Origin: Symbiobacterium thermophilum
GTDB taxonomy: Bacteria; Bacillota; Sulfobacillia; UBA995
Length of the DNA stretch: 46,184 nucleotides
Assembly (NCBI GenBank): GCA_020725145.1
Contig: DYFO01000013.1
Location: 1-46,184, forward strand
Reading direction: 5' to 3'
Shown: one piece after another, positions 1 to 25,728 of the stretch
How positions within the stretch are numbered: position 1 is the first letter of the stretch
Layout of the letters: every line of letters begins with the position of its first letter
The notes under the pieces: generated by a model
What the model was told of the DNA's origin: nothing
Database searches by the model: none
The model's input: the letters and a program-made list of their open reading frames with translations, nothing else
Position numbers and translations under genes: made by a program

Positions 1-49
1 TTTTGTCTGAGTGAGCCAATGTCCCTTCGGCTACATTTTAGCTGAGTGA
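1..49. repeat. Two direct repeats, possible transposon end
   Basis: The 14-base unit TTTTGTCTGAGTGA at 1-14 recurs as TTTTAGCTGAGTGA at 36-49, with two differences and a period of 35. Multiple short terminal repeats of this kind are known at the ends of IS21-family elements, and they lie at the left edge of the window with no gene between them and the tmRNA promoter. I infer a transposon terminus whose body would lie to the left. The assignment to IS21 rests on general resemblance only, and no transposase is visible here. Confidence 0.3.
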
Positions 50-59
50 TCGCGTGCCC

Positions 60-88
60 TTGCGGAGTCTTTAGAAACATGTTAGTAT
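60..88 (+). promoter_or_regulatory. Promoter of ssrA
   Basis: TTGCGG at 60-65 and TAGTAT at 83-88 are separated by 17 bases. The predicted start near 95 leaves a short 5' precursor before the mature tmRNA end at 124, as expected for RNase P processing. The position fits, but the -35 is only a moderate match. Confidence 0.5.
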
Positions 89-123
89 GAAAGTCCACCC
101 CTGCTTTTGCGACGAAACACTTT

Positions 124-476
124 GGGGGCGAGTCAGATTCGACGGCGGCAGTGCCGGGAGGAGTAGCAGGCCGGGGACCAGGACCCCGCACCAACCTGGA
201 AAAGCAGAAACGCCAACGAGAGCTACGCTCTGGCTGCCTAGCGCAGCCACGTTCCTCCAGTCCCCTCCCGCGGGACTGCCAGGAGCGTCAAACTAGCGGG
301 ATACTTCTGGGGAAACCGGCCCGGGTCCCCAGAGGAAACCTGACGGGCCTGGCCCGAGCCGGATCCTTCCCTTGGGAGACGGGGAGGGCGACCAAAGCAA
401 AGCAAGGGATAAGCCTGTAGAAGCTCCTTACGGTGCGCCGGCGGACCCGCCGGGCAGCTCGGCGGCGCCTCCACCA
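124..476 (+). ncRNA. ssrA: tmRNA (transfer-messenger RNA)
   Basis: tmRNA rescues stalled ribosomes and adds a degradation tag. The 5' acceptor strand GGGGGCG (124-130) pairs with CGCCTCC (466-472), followed by ACCA. The conserved block AGATTCGACGG lies just inside the 5' end. An internal reading frame encodes ANESYALAA followed by TAG (213-242), the usual ALAA tag ending; the exact resume codon is uncertain. AAGCCTGTAG in the 3' half is also typical. Odd point: the T-arm position (447-465) forms a 6-bp stem CCGCCG/CGGCGG with loop GGCAGCT, not the expected TTCGA-type loop. The tag should be recognised by ClpXP and Lon-type proteases, which are encoded downstream in this window. Confidence 0.9.
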
Positions 477-482
477 CTTTCG

Positions 483-515
483 AGCGGCTCCGGAAAGCGT
501 TACCGGAGCCGCTTT
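483..515 (+). terminator. Terminator of ssrA
   Basis: A perfect 11-bp inverted repeat, AGCGGCTCCGG (483-493) and CCGGAGCCGCT (503-513), with a 9-base loop, followed by a short T run. It begins seven bases after the tmRNA CCA end. Confidence 0.8.
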
Positions 516-561
516 CGCGTTCGCCAGAAGGGTAAGTGCGCCGGGTCGAGAAATAGTAGGC

Positions 562-1471
562 ATGCCCTACCAGGGATTCCGCATCATCGACTTTCACGTG
601 CACTTCCCGCTGGGCTGGCGGCTGGGTGCTGCCGCCCCACAGCCTGCGGATGCCCATATCCCCTCGCCCCAGGAGTACGCGCGGCGCCGCCGCGCCGAGT
701 GGCGGCGGGACAGAGCCCGGCGGGCCCGAGGAGACGGCCGACCGCTGGGCGGCCGAGGTCGACCGTTACGGTCTGGAGCGGGTGGTGGTGGTCACCGGCG
801 GCGGGAACGCGACGCTCGCCGGGCTGGTGGCGCGCCACCCTGGCAAGCTGGTGGGGCTTGCCCATCATTCGTTGCTCGATCCCGACCCGGCGGGGGAGCT
901 CAAGCGTGCCCTTGATGAGTTCGGGCTGCGGGGTTACAAGGTCATCGCCACGGGTCAGGACTTCGACCTGGACGATCCCGCCTTTGAAGCGGTTTGGAGC
1001 TTGCTCGAAGAGCGCGCCGCCCCGTTGCTCATCCATTTCGGCTTCCTGGGGCTGGGCGGAGGATGGATGACCCATCCCAACCAAAATCCCCTGGCCATCG
1101 CGGGCGTGGCGCACCGTCATCCCGGCCTGCCGATCGTCATCCCCCATTTCGGCTCCGGTTACTGGGAAGAGGTGCTGCGGTTGTGCTGGGGCTGCCCAAA
1201 CGTTTTCGTGGACAGCTCGGGGTCCAACCAGTGGGTGAGATGGTTGCCATACCGGCTCGACCTTGAGGACCTCTTCCGCAAGGCCTACGAGACCATCGGG
1301 CCCGGCCGTTTGATCTTCGGCACCGATTCCAGCTGGTTCCCACGGGGCTTTTGCTTCCGTTACCTCCAGGAGCAGATGCGGGTCTGCCGGCAGATCGGGA
1401 TGGGAGAGCAGGACATTCAGGCCGTCTTCGCCGGCAACGCCGCCCGCCTGCTGGGTCTGCCATGGCCTTGA
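562..1471 (+). pseudogene. Amidohydrolase (TIM-barrel), frameshifted
   Basis: The N-terminus starts at ATG 562 and carries the metal-binding HxH motif (IIDFHVHFP). The rest of the protein, from about TEPGGPEETADRW onward, lies in the +1-shifted frame through the stop at 1471. It contains the other amidohydrolase_2 signatures: LIHFGF, VIPHFG and a late LIFGTDSSW aspartate. The two frames meet near 701-715, around the run GGCGGCGGGA, as if one base had been gained or two lost. Read across the shift the protein would be about 302 residues, normal for the family. It may be a recent pseudogene or a sequencing error, since the downstream coding region shows no other damage. The substrate cannot be told. 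Its 3' end overlaps the amidase start. Confidence 0.75.
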
Positions 1472-18427: not shown

Positions 18428-18770
18428 CCGGCTCACCTCCTGCCGCCGCTCCCGGTGACCTTGACATCATCAAGGTATGCGGAGGCACTGGGGGCGGTTG
18501 CGGGCATTTTCCGACCTGGTACGAGGCGGAAGCCGGGTGCTTTGCTTAGAATACCGGTGATCCAGAGAAGGAGATCGCCGAACTTTCGTCGAAAACCTTA
18601 GCCTGTCGCGCCGGGCATTCGTGACGCCCGTGGCGGGAGATTCGTGCTAACCGGCACCCGCTGTGGGGAGGGGGGGATAGATCAGCGAGCTTGCCGAAGC
18701 TCTTCGAAGAAGGTAGCCGGCAATGCTTACTACCGGCAGCACTGGGAACTCAGAACCGAGGAGGTGCAAC
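18428..18770. other. Divergent intergenic region
   Basis: About 340 bases between the small membrane gene and the ABC operon. It contains the 19-base palindrome listed separately. Apart from a short inverted repeat GCCGG/CCGGC near 18716-18737 and the ribosome site GAGGAGGTG just before 18771, I see no clear promoter, RNA or gene. Confidence 0.5.
18458..18476. promoter_or_regulatory. 19-base palindrome, possible operator
   Basis: ACCTTGACATCATCAAGGT is a 7-5-7 inverted repeat about 30 bases upstream of the small membrane gene on the minus strand. Its size suits a dimeric regulator such as a MerR-type protein, but no regulator gene is adjacent, so the assignment is inferred. Confidence 0.4.
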
Positions 18771-21245
18771 ATGACGAGGAGGATTGTCGCGTTCGCCCTG
18801 CTGACGGCTATGGTGTTGGGCCTGTCGGCGGGCAGCGCCGCGCAGACCGTCCGGAGGGGAGCGTGGCTCGACGAGATCGTGGTTGTGGAAGAGCCGTCGT
18901 CTCCGGCCGCCCTCACGCGGATAGAGGCGGGCGACATCAACGCCTTTTTCTGGGGCATGGCCGCCGCGGACCTCTACCGCTACCGCCGCATAGTCGAGTC
19001 GCCCGCCATGAGCTACGTGGAGTCGGTGGGCTCCTTCGACGAGCTGACGTTCAACCCCCACGGTCCGACCTTCCGCGACGGCCGGCTGAACCCGTTCGCG
19101 GTCCCCCGCATCCGCGAGGCCATGAACTGGCTGGTCGATCGCGACTACATCGTGAAGGAGCTTTACGGCGGCCTGGCGGTTCCGCGCTACACCATGGTTC
19201 ACACCGCGGCGGCCGACTATGCGCGCCTGGCGGACATCATCCGGGTGATCGACCGTAAGTACGCTCCCAACGCCACCTTGGCGCAGCAGGTAATCACCGA
19301 GGAGATGCGCAAGCTGGGTGCGGAGCTGGTCGGCGGCAAGTGGCAGTACAAGGGCAAGCCGGTCACCCTGATCTTCGCCATCCGCATAGAGGACGTGCGC
19401 AAGCAGGTCGGCGACTATGTGTCCGGGCTGCTCGAAGGCATCGGCTTCACCGTAGAGCGCCGGTACGGGACTTCAGCTGAGCTGTCGCCGCTATGGTACT
19501 CGGGCGATCCCGCGGACGGCAAGTTCCACATCTACACCGGCGGGTGGATCCGCGGCGCCATCAACCGCGACGAGGGTGGCAACTTCGACTTCTTCTACAC
19601 CCCGCGCAGCACCATGGTCGTCCCGCTTTGGCAGGCTTACAAGCCCGATCCCGAGTTTGACGCGGTTGCGCTGCGCCTTTCCAAGCGGGAGTTTTCCAGC
19701 ATGGAGGAGCGCCGGGAGCTGTTCGCCAAGGCGCTTGAACTTTCGCTCAAGGACTCGGTCCGCATCTGGCTCGTCGACCGCAAGAGCATCTGGGCGACCC
19801 AGAAGGGCGTCCAGGCAGCGGCCGACCTGTGCGGCGGTCTGTCCGGCTCATTGCTCTGGCCCTACACCATCAGGTATACCGACCGCGTCGGCGGTTCCAT
19901 GCGGATAGCTTCGACCAGCATGCTCACCATGCCGTGGAACCCGGTGGGCGGCAGCAACTGGATCTTCGACATGACGCTCATCCGCGCCACGTCGGACTTC
20001 GACCTGCTGCCCGACCCGTATACCGGGCTTTTCTGGCCGCAGCGGCTGGCACGGGCTGAAGTCTATGCGAAGCAGGGCCTGCCCATCGCCCGCAGCCTGG
20101 ACTGGGTTACCCTTAACTTCGTGGAAACCAACAAGGTGCCCGCCGACGCCTGGGTCGACTGGGATGCCAAGGCTCAGCGCTTCATCACCGCGGGCGAGAA
20201 GTTCCCCGAGGGCAGGGAGTCGCTCATCAAGACGGTCCTTCGCTATCCGGCCGACCTTTTCCAGACGAAGTGGCACGACGGCAGCAACTTCTCCCTGGGC
20301 GACATGGTGCTACGCATCATCATGCTCTTTGACCGGTCCAAGCCCGAAAGCGCGATCTACGACTCCGCCTCGGTGCCCGGCTTCAACAGCTTCATGGGAC
20401 ACTTCCGGGGCGTGAAGATCGTCTCGCGCAACCCGCTGGTGATCGAGTGGTACACGGATCGGTACTACCCCGACGTCGAGTGGGTCGCCGCGGACGGGTC
20501 CGCGTTCGTGTGGCCCTACTATGCCCAGGGTATCGGCCCGTGGCACACCTTGGCGCTCTCGATCCTGGCCGAGGCCGACAAGAAGATAGCCTTCACCGCC
20601 GCCAGGGCCACCGCGCTCAAGGTTGAGCACACCAGCCTGATCGCCGGTCCGAGCCTGACGGTGCTGCGCAACATGTTGCCGGGGGCGGCCCGCGATAAGA
20701 TCCTGCCCTACGAGCCCACCATGAGCCAGTTCGTGCCGCGCGAGGAGTCCTGGGCGCGGTGGAACAACCTGGTCAGGTGGTTTGCGCAGCGCGGGCACTT
20801 CTGGGTAGGAAACGGTCCGTACTACCTCGAGAAGGTCTTCCCGGTGGAAAAGGTTGTTCACTTGAAGCGTTTTGCCGACTTCCCGGATCCCGCGGGTAAG
20901 TGGGATCGCTTCGGTGTAGCGGCCAGGCCGTCGGGCACGATCACCGGTCCTGCCCGTATCACCATCGGCCAAGCGGCCACGTTTGACGTGCGGATAACCA
21001 CCGGCGGCAAGCCCTACCCGGTGAAGGATATGCAGGAAGTCAGCTTCCTGCTGTTCGACGCCAAGGGTGAGCTTGCGTTGACCGGACCGATCACCGCCGT
21101 GAGCGACGGGCTCTGGCGGCTGACGCTCACCGCCGCACAGACCGGCCGCCTGCCGGCCGGCACCACCACCCTTGAGGTGGTAATGGTGTCCAAGCTCGTA
21201 GCCGTTCCCAGCTTCGTCTCGCTCGACATCGTCACGCGCCGCTAG
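18771..21245 (+). CDS. Peptide-type ABC transporter substrate-binding protein, large
   Basis: Secreted solute-binding protein of the SBP_bac_5 family, 824 residues against the usual 500-600. ATG 18771 follows GAGGAGGTG. A signal peptide ends near residue 24 (AGSAA); there is no lipobox Cys. The block REAMNWLVDRDYIVKELYGG, normally in the second half of the family, lies at about 115-134. The blocks usually near the start, KWHDGSNFSLGDMV, and the GxGPY motif (GNGPYYLEKV) lie at about 502-515 and 681-690. A beta-rich C-terminal domain of about 100 residues follows (ITGPARITIGQAATFDVRI). The order of halves thus looks reversed. It probably delivers oligopeptides or sugars to the permeases downstream; the ligand is unknown. 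Confidence 0.82.
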   Translation: MTRRIVAFALLTAMVLGLSAGSAAQTVRRGAWLDEIVVVEEPSSPAALTRIEAGDINAFFWGMAAADLYRYRRIVESPAMSYVESVGSFDELTFNPHGPTFRDGRLNPFAVPRIREAMNWLVDRDYIVKELYGGLAVPRYTMVHTAAADYARLADIIRVIDRKYAPNATLAQQVITEEMRKLGAELVGGKWQYKGKPVTLIFAIRIEDVRKQVGDYVSGLLEGIGFTVERRYGTSAELSPLWYSGDPADGKFHIYTGGWIRGAINRDEGGNFDFFYTPRSTMVVPLWQAYKPDPEFDAVALRLSKREFSSMEERRELFAKALELSLKDSVRIWLVDRKSIWATQKGVQAAADLCGGLSGSLLWPYTIRYTDRVGGSMRIASTSMLTMPWNPVGGSNWIFDMTLIRATSDFDLLPDPYTGLFWPQRLARAEVYAKQGLPIARSLDWVTLNFVETNKVPADAWVDWDAKAQRFITAGEKFPEGRESLIKTVLRYPADLFQTKWHDGSNFSLGDMVLRIIMLFDRSKPESAIYDSASVPGFNSFMGHFRGVKIVSRNPLVIEWYTDRYYPDVEWVAADGSAFVWPYYAQGIGPWHTLALSILAEADKKIAFTAARATALKVEHTSLIAGPSLTVLRNMLPGAARDKILPYEPTMSQFVPREESWARWNNLVRWFAQRGHFWVGNGPYYLEKVFPVEKVVHLKRFADFPDPAGKWDRFGVAARPSGTITGPARITIGQAATFDVRITTGGKPYPVKDMQEVSFLLFDAKGELALTGPITAVSDGLWRLTLTAAQTGRLPAGTTTLEVVMVSKLVAVPSFVSLDIVTRR

Positions 21246-21319: not shown

Positions 21320-22438
21320 ATGACCGCTGCATCCACAACACAAGGCGCCCGGCGGGCCGAAAGCTCCTTTGTCCGGGTCGCCCGGTACACCGGCGTTAGA
21401 CTGATCGCCGTACTCGTAACCGTGGTCGTCGGAGTGTATCTAACAATACTTATCGCCAACATGGGAGGCTACGTCGACGAGATCCGCATGGGGCAGATCC
21501 GCGAGGCCGTCGGCCTGATGGCGGGAGCCAATCCCGACCTGCCGTTCATGAGTGACGAGGAGCGCATCGCCTATGTTGAGCAGCTGGTGGCCATTGAGGT
21601 GGAGCGGCTGGGCATGGACCGTCCCTTCTTGCTCAGGAGCTTCACCTATCTGGCAAACGCCCTCACCCTGAATTTCGGGCGGGCCGAGCAGCTGATCAGC
21701 GACAGCGGCTCGCGGCTGGTCAGGTTGATCATCATTGAACGGCTGCCGTCCACGCTTTACCTTTTTGCGACCGGGCAGCTTCTGCTATTTGGCAGTGCTA
21801 TCCTGCTCGCTCTGTACCTCTCGCAACGTTACGGCAGCTGGCTTGACCGCTTGGTGGTGGCCCTGGCGCCGACCTCGGCCGCTCCCGGGTGGTTTTACGG
21901 TATCTTCCTGATCCTGATCTTCGCAGGCATCCTGCGGCTGCTTCCTTTCGGCGGCATGGTCGACACCCCGCCGCCTGCCGACAGGCTTCAGTACGCCCTC
22001 AGTCTGCTCAAGCACCTCATTCTGCCGATCAGCGCGATCCTGATGGGCGCCCTGTGGCAGACCACCTATTTCTGGCGCACCTTCTTCCTCATCTACTCGC
22101 GCGAGGACTACGTGGAAATGGCAAGGGCGAAGGGTCTCCCCCCGCACCTGGTGGAGAGGCGTTACATCCTAAGGCCGACGCTGCCCGCCATCGTGACCTC
22201 CTTTGCGCTGCAGCTCATCTCGATGTGGATGGGGGCCATCGTGCTGGAGACCGTTTTCCGGTGGCCTGGCATCGGCCAGCTGTTCTTCAGGGCTATTGGC
22301 AGCTACGATACGCCGGTTCTACTGGGGATCGTCGTGACCTATGCCTACCTCCTGGCGGTGACAGTGCTGGTCCTGGAGATCGTATACGCCATCCTCGACC
22401 CACGGGTGAGGATAGAGGGGAGGAAGGCTGAGGCATGA
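21320..22438 (+). CDS. ABC transporter permease, DppB type
   Basis: Inner-membrane permease of 372 residues. ATG 21320 is nine bases after AGGTGAG. One helix near 28-50 is followed by an external loop of about 80 residues (GGYVDEIRMGQIREAV and following, to DRPFLLRSFTYLANALTLNFGRA). The binding-protein-dependent transport domain runs from about 135 to the end with the EAA-like loop YVEMARAKGLPPHLVERRYI. The gene overlaps the next one by four bases. Confidence 0.92.
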   Translation: MTAASTTQGARRAESSFVRVARYTGVRLIAVLVTVVVGVYLTILIANMGGYVDEIRMGQIREAVGLMAGANPDLPFMSDEERIAYVEQLVAIEVERLGMDRPFLLRSFTYLANALTLNFGRAEQLISDSGSRLVRLIIIERLPSTLYLFATGQLLLFGSAILLALYLSQRYGSWLDRLVVALAPTSAAPGWFYGIFLILIFAGILRLLPFGGMVDTPPPADRLQYALSLLKHLILPISAILMGALWQTTYFWRTFFLIYSREDYVEMARAKGLPPHLVERRYILRPTLPAIVTSFALQLISMWMGAIVLETVFRWPGIGQLFFRAIGSYDTPVLLGIVVTYAYLLAVTVLVLEIVYAILDPRVRIEGRKAEA

Positions 22439-23784
22439 GAGCCTTGCTGGCAAGGGCGCAGGAACTGCGACGCTATCCCTCGGCGATCCTGGGTTTGGCG
22501 ATGATCTGCACTTTGGTGATCCTCGCAGTCTACGCTATGGCGACCATGCCTTACCGCGAAGCCGTGCGGCTGTGGCAGGGAGGAGAAGGCGTATGGGACG
22601 AGAATCCCCGGCTCGCCAAGCCCAGCTGGTTCAACGCCTTCCGGAAGGTCAAGCTGCCACCGACCATCGTCGTTGACAGCGCGGGCAGACCCGAGACGAA
22701 ACAACGCATCGAGTTCGAGGAGGAAGGTGAGGCGGACGTCCTCATCACCCTCGCGTTCGACTACCAGTACGACGTTTTCCCCAAGGAGCTCGCGGTCTAC
22801 CTGACAGCCAACTTCGAAAAGGTGGCGCCGTTTGCCTCTTTCATCTGGCGCACTCCCGACGGCCGCGAGTTCCCGATGACGAGCACGTCGGTGCGCACCC
22901 GTGACAGCTATCGCATCTCGCAGGACCGCAAACTACAGGCAGAGCTTGGCGGCCGACAACCAGAAATAGGGTTATTGGCAGCTGATCCCTGGGCCGAGAC
23001 CCCCGTGCCGTTGAAGGGCCGTCACGAGCTCATAGTCGACGGCATCGTGTTTGAGCCCGGGTCGGACCTTGACGCCCGGTTGGTCGTATACGGTCAGGTG
23101 CACGGCATTGCCGGCACCGATCACCTGCGCCGCGACATCACGGTAGCCCTGCTTTGGGGGACTCCCATAGCCCTGTGCTTCGGTCTTCTGGCAGCGGTGG
23201 GCTCGATGAGCACCACCATGGTGCTGGCTGCCACTGGGTCATGGTACGGCCGTTGGGTTGACGGCCTGCTACAGCGCCTCAATGAGCTGGTGATGATCCT
23301 GCCGATGCTCCCCATCCTCGTGATGGTGGGAACCCTGTATTCGCGCAGCATCTGGCTGATGCTGGGGCTCATCATCCTCCTGAGCATTTTCGGCGGAGCG
23401 CTCAGGATCTATCGCGCGATGTTTCTGCAGACGCGGGAGGCGCCTTACATCGAGGCGGCACGGGCCTACGGCGCGGGCAATCTCCGGATCATCTTCCTTT
23501 ACCTCATACCGCGCATAATACCGGTGCTGGTGCCCCAGTTCGTGAGCTTGATCCCGACCTTCGTGTTCCTCGAGGCTACGCTTTCTCTCCTGGGACTGGG
23601 AGACCCGACCATTCCTACCTGGGGGAAAGTGTTGAACGACGCCTCCCAGAACGGGGCCCTGTTCATGGGGCACTATTACTGGGTACTGGCGCCTTCTCTT
23701 TTGCTGATCTTCACCGGGCTTGGCTTCGCCATGCTGGGCTTCGCGCTTGACCGAGTCTTCAACCCGAGGCTGAGGGAGCAATGA
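22435..23784 (+). CDS. ABC transporter permease, DppC type, with large external insert
   Basis: Partner permease of 449 residues, longer than the usual 280-320. Helix 1 lies at about 18-36. About 180 residues between it and the transport domain look soluble and beta-rich (PPTIVVDSAGRPETKQRIEF, then LIVDGIVFEPGSDLDARLVV). This places an extra domain outside the membrane. The transport domain from about 225 has the EAA loop YIEAARAYGAGNLRI and ends in the usual LGFALDRVFNPRLRE. ATG 22435 overlaps the previous stop (ATGA). Confidence 0.9.
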   Translation: MRALLARAQELRRYPSAILGLAMICTLVILAVYAMATMPYREAVRLWQGGEGVWDENPRLAKPSWFNAFRKVKLPPTIVVDSAGRPETKQRIEFEEEGEADVLITLAFDYQYDVFPKELAVYLTANFEKVAPFASFIWRTPDGREFPMTSTSVRTRDSYRISQDRKLQAELGGRQPEIGLLAADPWAETPVPLKGRHELIVDGIVFEPGSDLDARLVVYGQVHGIAGTDHLRRDITVALLWGTPIALCFGLLAAVGSMSTTMVLAATGSWYGRWVDGLLQRLNELVMILPMLPILVMVGTLYSRSIWLMLGLIILLSIFGGALRIYRAMFLQTREAPYIEAARAYGAGNLRIIFLYLIPRIIPVLVPQFVSLIPTFVFLEATLSLLGLGDPTIPTWGKVLNDASQNGALFMGHYYWVLAPSLLLIFTGLGFAMLGFALDRVFNPRLREQ

Positions 23785-24737
23785 TGGAACAGGTACTACG
23801 CGTCGAACAACTCAATCTCCACTTCCGTACCACCAGGGGACCTGTCCAGGCGGTAGACCGCGTCAGCTTCGATTTGCCCCGCGGCTTTACGCTCGCGGTG
23901 ATCGGCGAATCAGGCTGCGGCAAGACCTCCATGGCCCGTGGTGTGCTGAGACTTCTGCCCCGCAATGTCCAGACCTACACGGGGAGCGTCTTCCTCAACG
24001 GCACCGACGTCATGCGCCTGGACGAGGATCGCTTTCGCCGAGAGATTCGGTGGGTGCGCATGGCACTGGTGCCCCAGGCCGCGATGAACTCCTTGAACCC
24101 CGTGCTACGTGTGGGGGACCAGGTGGCCGAGCCCTTGATCCTACACCGCCGGGTGTCCGACAAGAAGCAGGCGCTTGAGCGAGTCCGCGAGGCCTTCAGG
24201 CTCGTCGGCGTGCCCGAGGACTTCACCCACCGGTATGCCTTTGAGCTCTCAGGCGGCATGCGGCAGCGCGTCGCCATCGCTATGGCGTTGGTAACGCGAC
24301 CGGAACTGGTGGTGCTGGACGAGCCGACCAGCGCTCTCGACGTGCTCACCCAGGCCAACCTGATGAACGTGCTCAAGCGGCTCAAGCGTGATTCGGAGAT
24401 CAGCTTCATGCTGATAACCCATGACATCGCTACTTCCAGCGAACTTGCGGACCGGGTAGCCGTGATGTACGCGGGACAGATCGTGGAGATCGCCGACGCT
24501 CGCCACTTTTACCCCGACCCGATGCACCCGTACTCCAAGAAACTGATGGCTAGTGTACCTACGCTGCGCCAGGATAAGAAGCTCGAGTTCATACCGGGTC
24601 AGCCGCCCAGCCTGATCCAGCCGCCCACGGGTTGTCGCTTCAAGGATCGTTGCGCGTCGCGCAACGAGCGCTGCGCGGAGGAACCACCGCTGCTTGAGAC
24701 CCGGGACCGGAAGGTGAGGTGCTGGCTGTATGCCTGA
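23781..24737 (+). CDS. ABC transporter ATP-binding protein, DppD type
   Basis: First ATPase of the transporter, 318 residues. Walker A GESGCGKTS, signature LSGGMRQRV, Walker B LVVLDEPTSALD and switch LITHD are all present. The C-terminal oligo/dipeptide region has the Cys cluster CRFKDRCASRNERC and a final CWLYA, as in family members that bind an iron-sulfur cluster. The start is ATG 23781 or ATG 23784, overlapping the previous stop. Confidence 0.95.
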   Translation: MMEQVLRVEQLNLHFRTTRGPVQAVDRVSFDLPRGFTLAVIGESGCGKTSMARGVLRLLPRNVQTYTGSVFLNGTDVMRLDEDRFRREIRWVRMALVPQAAMNSLNPVLRVGDQVAEPLILHRRVSDKKQALERVREAFRLVGVPEDFTHRYAFELSGGMRQRVAIAMALVTRPELVVLDEPTSALDVLTQANLMNVLKRLKRDSEISFMLITHDIATSSELADRVAVMYAGQIVEIADARHFYPDPMHPYSKKLMASVPTLRQDKKLEFIPGQPPSLIQPPTGCRFKDRCASRNERCAEEPPLLETRDRKVRCWLYA

Positions 24738-25728
24738 GGCGAGCAACGGCAACGCTTTGCTCTCCGTTCAGAACTTGCAGACGTGGTTCGAGATGCGGCG
24801 CTGGGGTTTCATCCGCGTGGGATTCGTGCAGGCGGTCGACGGCGTTAGTTTCGAGCTCAAACACGGTGAAGCTATCGCCGTGGTGGGCGAAAGCGGTTGC
24901 GGGAAGACAACGCTCGCCCGCACCATCCTTGGCCTTTATCCGCCGACCAGCGGCCGGATCACCTTCGAAGGTCGCGAGGTCAAGGGTTCGGCCCTGCGCC
25001 AATACCGGGCGAACGTGGGCTACGTGCAGCAGGATCCCTACGGCGCGCTTCCGCCCTTTCTGCCAGTGCAGCGGATCCTTGAGGAACCACTGATCATTCA
25101 GGGAGTGCGCGACCCTGCGGAGCGCAACCACCGAGTACGCAAGGCGCTTGAGGCCGTCAAGATGACGCCGGTGGACAATTTCCTTTCGAAGTTCCCCCAC
25201 ATGCTCAGCGGCGGCCAGCAGCAGAGGGTGGTCCTGGCGAGGGCCAAGATTCTGGAACCCAAGCTAATCGTGGCCGACGAGCCGGTGTCGATGCTCGACG
25301 CATCGGTGCGCGTGGAGATCCTGGAGCTTCTGCGGGAGCTACAGCGTAAGTCGAACCTGGGTGTAATCTACATCACCCATGACCTCTCAACCGTGCGCTT
25401 TTTCACCGAGCGCATCATGGTGATGTACGGCGGCAAAGTGGTCGAAGAGGCTCCGGTGAAGGAGCTGCTCGCCAACCCGCTGCACCCGTACACGCGGGCC
25501 TTGCTGGCGGCCATCCCCGACCCGGACCCGCACAACGCGGAGGTGCAGAAAGAGGTACCGCCGGGCGAGCCGCCCAGCCTGCTCAATCCGCCTCCGGGTT
25601 GCCGCTTCCACCCGCGGTGTGCCTCGCTGATCGCGGGCCGGTGCGACGCCAAGGAACCGCCCATCGCCGAGCCCGCGGCGCCCGGTCACCGTACGGCCTG
25701 CTGGCTGTATGCCGATGGAGACGCTTAG
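24730..25728 (+). CDS. ABC transporter ATP-binding protein, DppF type
   Basis: Second ATPase, 332 residues. Walker A GESGCGKTT, signature LSGGQQQRV, Walker B LIVADEPVSMLD and switch YITHD are seen. The C-terminus has the Cys cluster CRFHPRCASLIAGRC plus CWLYA, parallel to its partner. ATG 24730 overlaps the preceding gene by eight bases. Confidence 0.95.
   Translation: MPEASNGNALLSVQNLQTWFEMRRWGFIRVGFVQAVDGVSFELKHGEAIAVVGESGCGKTTLARTILGLYPPTSGRITFEGREVKGSALRQYRANVGYVQQDPYGALPPFLPVQRILEEPLIIQGVRDPAERNHRVRKALEAVKMTPVDNFLSKFPHMLSGGQQQRVVLARAKILEPKLIVADEPVSMLDASVRVEILELLRELQRKSNLGVIYITHDLSTVRFFTERIMVMYGGKVVEEAPVKELLANPLHPYTRALLAAIPDPDPHNAEVQKEVPPGEPPSLLNPPPGCRFHPRCASLIAGRCDAKEPPIAEPAAPGHRTACWLYADGDA

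Follow-up and report, generated by a model that had tools for sequence, protein, structure and literature searches.

Swapped halves in a Symbiobacterium thermophilum SBP_bac_5 substrate-binding protein point to natural circular permutation

Introduction

How does a two-lobed substrate-binding protein (SBP) come to be encoded with its halves in reversed order? We addressed this question for a gene of Symbiobacterium thermophilum lying on a contig of 46,184 nucleotides, which was analyzed over its whole length and is referred to here as the window. An earlier note, made from the sequence, had proposed circular permutation or a fusion of two partial domains.

A precedent exists in another class of SBP. 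TpMglB-2 (Tp0684) of Treponema pallidum is a naturally circularly permuted SBP that binds glucose and whose crystal structure has been solved; its description reports it also from other treponemes and from Gram-positive bacteria, proposes a subclass "Cluster Bc / Type Ic", and discusses tethering (PMC4990184). The same account notes poor sequence conservation of the permuted part and allows an origin from a different gene. Our literature search, which left most subscription papers outside its reach, found no report of a permuted SBP_bac_5 protein among the papers listed, and this is weak evidence of novelty; PMC2588589 names SBP_bac_5 in a single table entry and circular permutation in a single reference.

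Results

Gene and conserved blocks

The features of the locus are listed in Table 1. A second in-frame ATG lies upstream of the assigned start, at 18723. No lipobox was seen in the sequence of the signal region (residues ~1–24), and cleavage between SAA and Q is our guess for the putative signal peptide. The conserved blocks are found at residues 119–126 (NWLVDRDY), 502–504 (HDG) and 680–685 (GNGPYY, in place of the usual GTGPY), as the earlier note had described in placing an NyaiDRd block (~120) ahead of HDG (~505) and GTGPY (~685). R124, H502 and G504 are invariant across an alignment of 47 homologues, and N119, D123, D503, G682 and P683 almost invariant. Nine strands are predicted within residues 721–823, bearing out the extra C-terminal beta domain that had also been noted. 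By sequence, this domain gave no PDB match better than E 0.26; weak Ig-like matches were observed, FlgD_ig reaching E 3.9e-5 at best and being matched by 9 of 23 members, and we tentatively consider its fold class to be Ig-like.

Table 1 Features of the locus (positions in the window).
Feature	Position	Strand	Basis or remark
Shine-Dalgarno-like GGAGGT, upstream of ATG 18771	18760..18765	+	sequence
CDS, permuted substrate-binding protein	18771..21245	+	824 aa, ATG 18771
Putative signal peptide, residues ~1–24	18771..18842	+	sequence; low pLDDT at residues 1–3 and 11–24
Natural C-terminal half, residues ~28–372, comes first	18852..19886	+	VIA-align Z 26.7 to 7fi3_A 336..755; Pfam 31–265
Junction VGG, residues ~373–375, natural C-end to natural N-start	19887..19895	+	structure, breakpoint and spacing comparisons
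Natural N-terminal half, residues ~374–712, comes second; HDG and GNGPYY	19890..20906	+	own AF2 model; Z 29.7 to 7fi3_A 35..347
C-terminal beta domain (Ig-like?), residues ~718–823	20922..21239	+	predicted strands; weak Ig-like matches
Permease PermB (OppB-like)	21320..22438	+	PF00528 E 2.6e-27; conserved downstream neighbor
Permease PermC (OppC-like), insert before permease core	22435..23784	+	PF00528 at residues 264–447
ATPase (DppD/OppD-like)	23781..24737	+	PF00005 and oligo_HPY
ATPase (DppF/OppF-like)	24730..25728	+	PF00005 and oligo_HPY

Order of the halves

We compared the protein with family profiles and with sequences of known structure. SBP_bac_5 (PF00496) was the sole Pfam family found (E 8.7e-19), in two stretches, the better of which aligned residues 31–265 with profile positions 146–352. 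The score of 68.3 bits is above the cut-off of 32.4, and the standard order of the halves is absent; we therefore regard the protein as a permuted variant and not as an ordinary member of the family. As controls, the genome's four other SBP_bac_5 proteins each gave one collinear match from profile position 2 to 362–366, whereas the window protein covered the model only at 146–353. In an NCBIfam search, every match (to Opp4A, GsiB and nickel-binding proteins) scored far under the cut-off. The sole PDB sequence match with E below 0.1 was OppA of T. kodakarensis (TkOppA, 7fi3_A; E 1.4e-24), and it consisted of two swapped stretches, residues 491–708 on 99–310 and residues 95–262 on 390–569.

We then rotated the sequence, setting the second half ahead of the first. 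The rotated sequence matched 7FI3 in one stretch (118–579 on 99–569) at 98.4 bits, whereas the native score of 89.6 bits is split over two stretches (62.8 and 30.0); SBP_bac_5 was matched in one stretch at 78.3 bits, compared with 68.3 bits in two. Profile alignment after rotation, a check suggested in the earlier note, thus yielded a single collinear match to both Pfam and 7FI3. These results clearly indicate that the swapped order of the halves is beyond chance.

Predicted structure

The AlphaFold2 (AF2) model of the full-length SBP, built from a 47-row alignment, had a mean pLDDT of 91.4 and a pTM of 0.87. Since the structure search rows obtained with this model covered residues 27–372, the second half was folded and searched separately (residues 376–716; pLDDT 94.8, pTM 0.93); both models draw on the same homologues. 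VIA-align placed model residues 28–372 on 7fi3_A 336–755 (Z 26.7, rmsd 2.4, 337 aligned) and the second-half model on 35–347 (Z 29.7, rmsd 2.3, 296 aligned), so that the two halves jointly cover 35–755 of this normal-order protein in swapped order, with a small overlap at 336–347. The predicted models have the two-lobed cluster C fold, and topology comparison, the other check that had been suggested, recovered the halves of 7FI3 in reversed order and no standard SBP topology. From these alignments, the cut would lie at ~336–347 of TkOppA and the natural ends would meet at about window residue 373, rather than at the rotation point of ~430 given in the earlier note.

TkOppA is the nearest solved relative of both halves and shares the enlarged N-half, but its chain of 732 amino acids has the normal order, and it is 21% and 18% identical to the window protein over the two aligned parts. 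Ordinary cluster C proteins, which belong to the same Pfam family and transporter type, resemble the C-half in fold (B. subtilis AppA, 1XOC, Z 22.7; E. coli DppA, 1DPP, Z 20.8); their halves, in contrast, are in the opposite order, and their N-half is much less alike (~Z 9), the next-best structure for the N-half model having a Z of 9.4 against 29.7 for 7FI3.

Circular permutation, fusion or artifact

Both halves are complete, their order is swapped, and the natural ends are joined; 7FI3 and two proteins of our set, L176 and L214, are the normal-order homologues. The single collinear match on rotation, the swapped coverage of 7FI3 and a near-constant short linker together support circular permutation. 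Linker length was assessed as the alignment-column spacing from the W of LWPY (last part of the C-half) to the W of PWNP (N-half): among 48 permuted rows of the tree described below, it was 22–27 residues in 43, being 25 in 26 rows and 26 in 8. This near-constancy is compatible with a single origin of the permuted proteins, or else with strong limits on how long the linker can be. We consider it very probable (about 95%) that the window protein is a large SBP_bac_5 (cluster C) binding protein of the TkOppA type that was circularly permuted in nature.

Of the two origins named in the earlier note, permutation of one protein is supported as a far better fit than the joining of unrelated pieces. 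In the latter case, two partial domains of different SBP genes would have fused in reversed order and been complementary by chance. The two Pfam stretches can be read as separate pieces, and there is room for separate histories in that the N-half profile hardly matches ordinary SBPs and the N-half fold falls from Z 29.7 to 9.4 beyond 7FI3; trees of the separate halves also disagree in places, TkOppA standing with L150 in one and beside the L176 group in the other. Against this, 7FI3 is the nearest solved relative of both halves by sequence as well as by fold and is covered from 35 to 755, and the half-trees concur both on the group of L174, L183, L184, L176 and L214 and on the window protein with L001, which stand in the same bacterial group. 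We therefore rejected fusion as very improbable. Misjoining of two adjacent SBP genes through an assembly or frame error is still harder to credit: the source genome is fragmented (77 contigs) and the window is one contig, but the gene is a single continuous frame, its operon is the same as in relatives, and 158 non-redundant open reading frames (ORFs) from many genomes have the identical order. These independent copies led us to reject an artifact.

As a permutant, the mature chain would begin at the loop that follows the GPYYL strand of normal-order relatives, run along the natural C-terminal half as far as the natural C-end, where a linker of a few residues leads over to the natural N-terminus, and stop at the cut site, followed by the small beta domain; the models predict that it folds as an ordinary two-lobed clamp. 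Such a chain probably arose when the gene was duplicated in tandem, the copies fused and their outer parts were lost. Permuted genes do occur as tandem copies, two at L022:3988-9473 and three (one partial) at L029:1-7502, 53–70% identical to each other, and would provide raw material for this route.

Distribution of the permuted form

We retrieved 64 related loci (best-segment identity 30–62%), mostly metagenome-assembled and titled in their records as Chloroflexi/Anaerolineae, Halanaerobiaceae, Bipolaricaulota/Acetothermia, Thermotogota, Spirochaetales, Planctomycetota, Thermodesulfovibrionales, archaea and others. Half-profiles built from the alignment found 149 ORFs with both halves in a first scan, 148 permuted and 1 normal, and a further 42 matched by one half only; copies of one gene in several loci were treated separately in this count. 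With retrained half-profiles and more loci, the numbers were 183 permuted, 7 normal and 47 single-half. Two proteins, L176/L181 and L182/L214, account for four of the seven normal-order ORFs as copies, and the other three are weak matches (13–24 bits) on ordinary SBPs. Requiring more than 40 bits for each half, the non-redundant ORFs comprised 158 permuted (partial ones included) and 2 normal. The permuted order is no error; the proteins that have it make up an old family, widespread among archaea and bacteria.

Sampled genomes were also surveyed by phylum. In the phylum of the archaeon G061, 141 of 200 genomes gave a match at E ≤ 0.001, and in 110 of these it lay below 1e-50; the 30 loci returned from this sample (L087, L106–L134) were all permuted, and the matches beyond them were checked for half order in part. 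In the phylum of the window, 211 of 398 genomes had a match, 17 below 1e-50, and the weaker matches listed cover part of the profile, mostly the C-half, as ordinary SBPs do. Among the genome of the window and 60 relatives (61 in all), we found a match in 8, strong in 4 (G000, G001, G003 in two pieces, and G008). A 717-aa protein of an archaeal-phylum genome (L175:4213-6366) has the C-half near its N-terminus (39–362), and the N-half profile found no second half in it.

Phylogeny of the half order

For tree inference, ORFs with fewer than 280 profile positions in either half were excluded and 11 ordinary SBPs served as outgroup. A limit of 62% identity brought the 163 unique half-pairs down to 82, to which TkOppA (residues 99–569) was added; dropping 26 rows for speed (22 permuted, 4 outgroup) and adding L214 left 58 rows, and removal of L215, whose branch was too long, gave the final 57 rows and 686 columns. 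The 7 ordinary SBP rows separated from the rest with support 100/100. A clade supported at 99/99 unites permuted L150, normal TkOppA, normal L176 and L214, and permuted L174, L183 and L184; within it, L176 and L214 group with L174, L183 and L184 (100/99). Long branches and odd composition were flagged in the trees, L176 and L214 among them.

The permuted label requires three changes on the 57-row tree. Across 200 bootstrap trees, the 5–95% range of changes was 3–3 and no tree had a single change; a single clade of all permuted rows was rejected (lnL 54.7 lower, p-AU 0.0003). Placing TkOppA with the outgroup is not rejected by the AU test (p 0.106), and one permutation and one reversion would then remain. 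Trees of the N-half and of the C-half both place L176/L214 with L174/L183/L184 (99 and 98), and both place the window protein with L001 inside the same bacterial group. They differ on TkOppA and inside the L176/L214/L174/L183/L184 group: in the N-half tree, L176/L214 stand beside L183/L184 with L174 outside, whereas permuted L174, L183 and L184 hold together in the C-half and joint trees.

The normal-order pair comes from two archaeal genomes and is nested among permuted proteins with the same breakpoints. L176 starts, directly after its signal peptide, at the junction site of the permuted proteins, whose mature N-terminus in turn falls in the middle of L176. It is 38–46% identical, in swapped order, to permuted proteins of G092, G185 and G116, and 79% identical, in the same order, to the protein of G203; with the permuted profile, the best matches in G124 and G203 had E 2.0e-16 and 1.7e-9, neither amounting to a strong permuted copy. 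Such nesting with shared breakpoints indicates that the order changed at least twice, by permutation and reversion or by parallel permutations. On the tree, three separate permutations are exactly as costly as one permutation followed by two reversions; one origin with reversion is tentatively favored because of the near-constancy of linker length.

In the main clade, the 16 bacterial rows fall into one group (100/99) within a clade that also contains archaeal rows, which suggests that most bacterial copies, the one in the window included, were acquired from archaea; L149 and L150, which belong to the phylum of the window, sit outside the main bacterial group. The membrane anchor may differ with the order. 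It is presumed to follow the natural C-end in normal-order L176 and the cut site in the permuted archaeal proteins examined, so that the tether would move when the order changes. By simple rules, a hydrophobic C-terminal stretch was found in 64 of the 158 non-redundant permuted ORFs and a lipobox-like motif in 38. A history in which half order toggled, being permuted once in archaea at a fixed breakpoint, spreading to bacteria, and reverting in at least one archaeal lineage (L176/L214) with the same breakpoints and operon type and a moved membrane anchor, is a tentative reconstruction to which we give slightly less than even odds.

Operon and ligand

The window holds the gene set of an Opp/Dpp-type ABC importer, namely an SBP, two permeases and two oligo_HPY ATPases. 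We judged the gene order in 42 of 65 loci (window and L001–L064), those in which 5.2 kb or more follows the SBP, the other 23 being too short; the order SBP, PermB, PermC and the two ATPases (ATPD, ATPF) was present in 38. In the remaining four the operon was incomplete: L013 had none of it, L014 showed overlapping frames, and L033 and L043 had the permeases only. From archaea, 21 loci were considered (leaving out L175), of which 16 were judged and 10, normal-order L214 included, were complete; the genes were absent from L169, L170 and L215 and present in part at L213, L216 and L218.

PermC of the window has a weak OppC_N match, below cut-off, at residues 10–40, followed after these first ~40 residues by an insert of about 200 (~41–235). 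This insert (41–235) is matched in every PermC that adjoins a permuted SBP among L001–L063; archaeal PermC proteins are 385–583 aa long, most of them without a BLAST match to it.

The window SBP is most likely the exported receptor of this importer. It would bind its ligand between the lobes and pass it to the adjacent PermB, PermC and two ATPases, the operon being conserved. By analogy, the ligand is most likely an oligopeptide, which we favor over sugar because the nearest solved relative, 7FI3, was crystallized with an endogenous pentapeptide, as its entry title states. An oligosaccharide bound by the same permuted fold is the main, less likely alternative. Solved sugar complexes exist among the structural neighbors (TM1223 with mannobiose, chitin-oligosaccharide binders, and the cellobiose binder 2o7i), and the placing of Sulfolobus di- and oligosaccharide binding proteins in the oligo/dipeptide transporter family also counts for it. 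The pentapeptide in the closest solved relative speaks against it, as does the fact that, by eye, no glycosidase was recognized among the recurrent neighbors. Clustering of neighbors as a clue to substrate yielded no recurrent catabolic gene; it gave transporter genes, other SBPs, out-of-frame ORFs and genes common to a few related loci. OppA and DppA carry an Asp relevant to peptide binding; a search for its equivalent through the alignment with 7FI3 yielded no clear argument at residue level for a peptide ligand.

Discussion

TpMglB-2 is the nearest precedent found for a natural circularly permuted SBP, and it belongs to another SBP class. It is described as having the cluster B fold, which would set it apart from the window protein, whose sequence family and listed fold matches are cluster C; its described breakpoint also differs, with the first three N-lobe strands moved to the C-terminal end and a fourth crossover present. 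A large, old permuted family in a second SBP class constitutes a natural experiment on new chain ends in a two-lobed clamp, and bears on where such a clamp may be tethered and on how docking to the permease works. It also explains the partial annotation of these proteins, which family models read as two short matches. Furthermore, with two normal-order proteins nested among permuted relatives, repeated changes of order can be put to the test within one protein family.

Permuted SBPs also occur in larger or altered contexts. At L047:4983-12272, one lies within a 2429-aa protein, with repeats before and Ig/TIG-like parts behind (by eye), and the same genome (G070) has an additional permuted copy of 863 aa (L079). 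At L048:576-4283, another is part of a 1235-aa protein that ends at the contig end and has FG-GAP-like repeats before it (by eye). The copies at L061:7836-10670 and L073/L014:615-3032 are split or shortened by apparent frame breaks.
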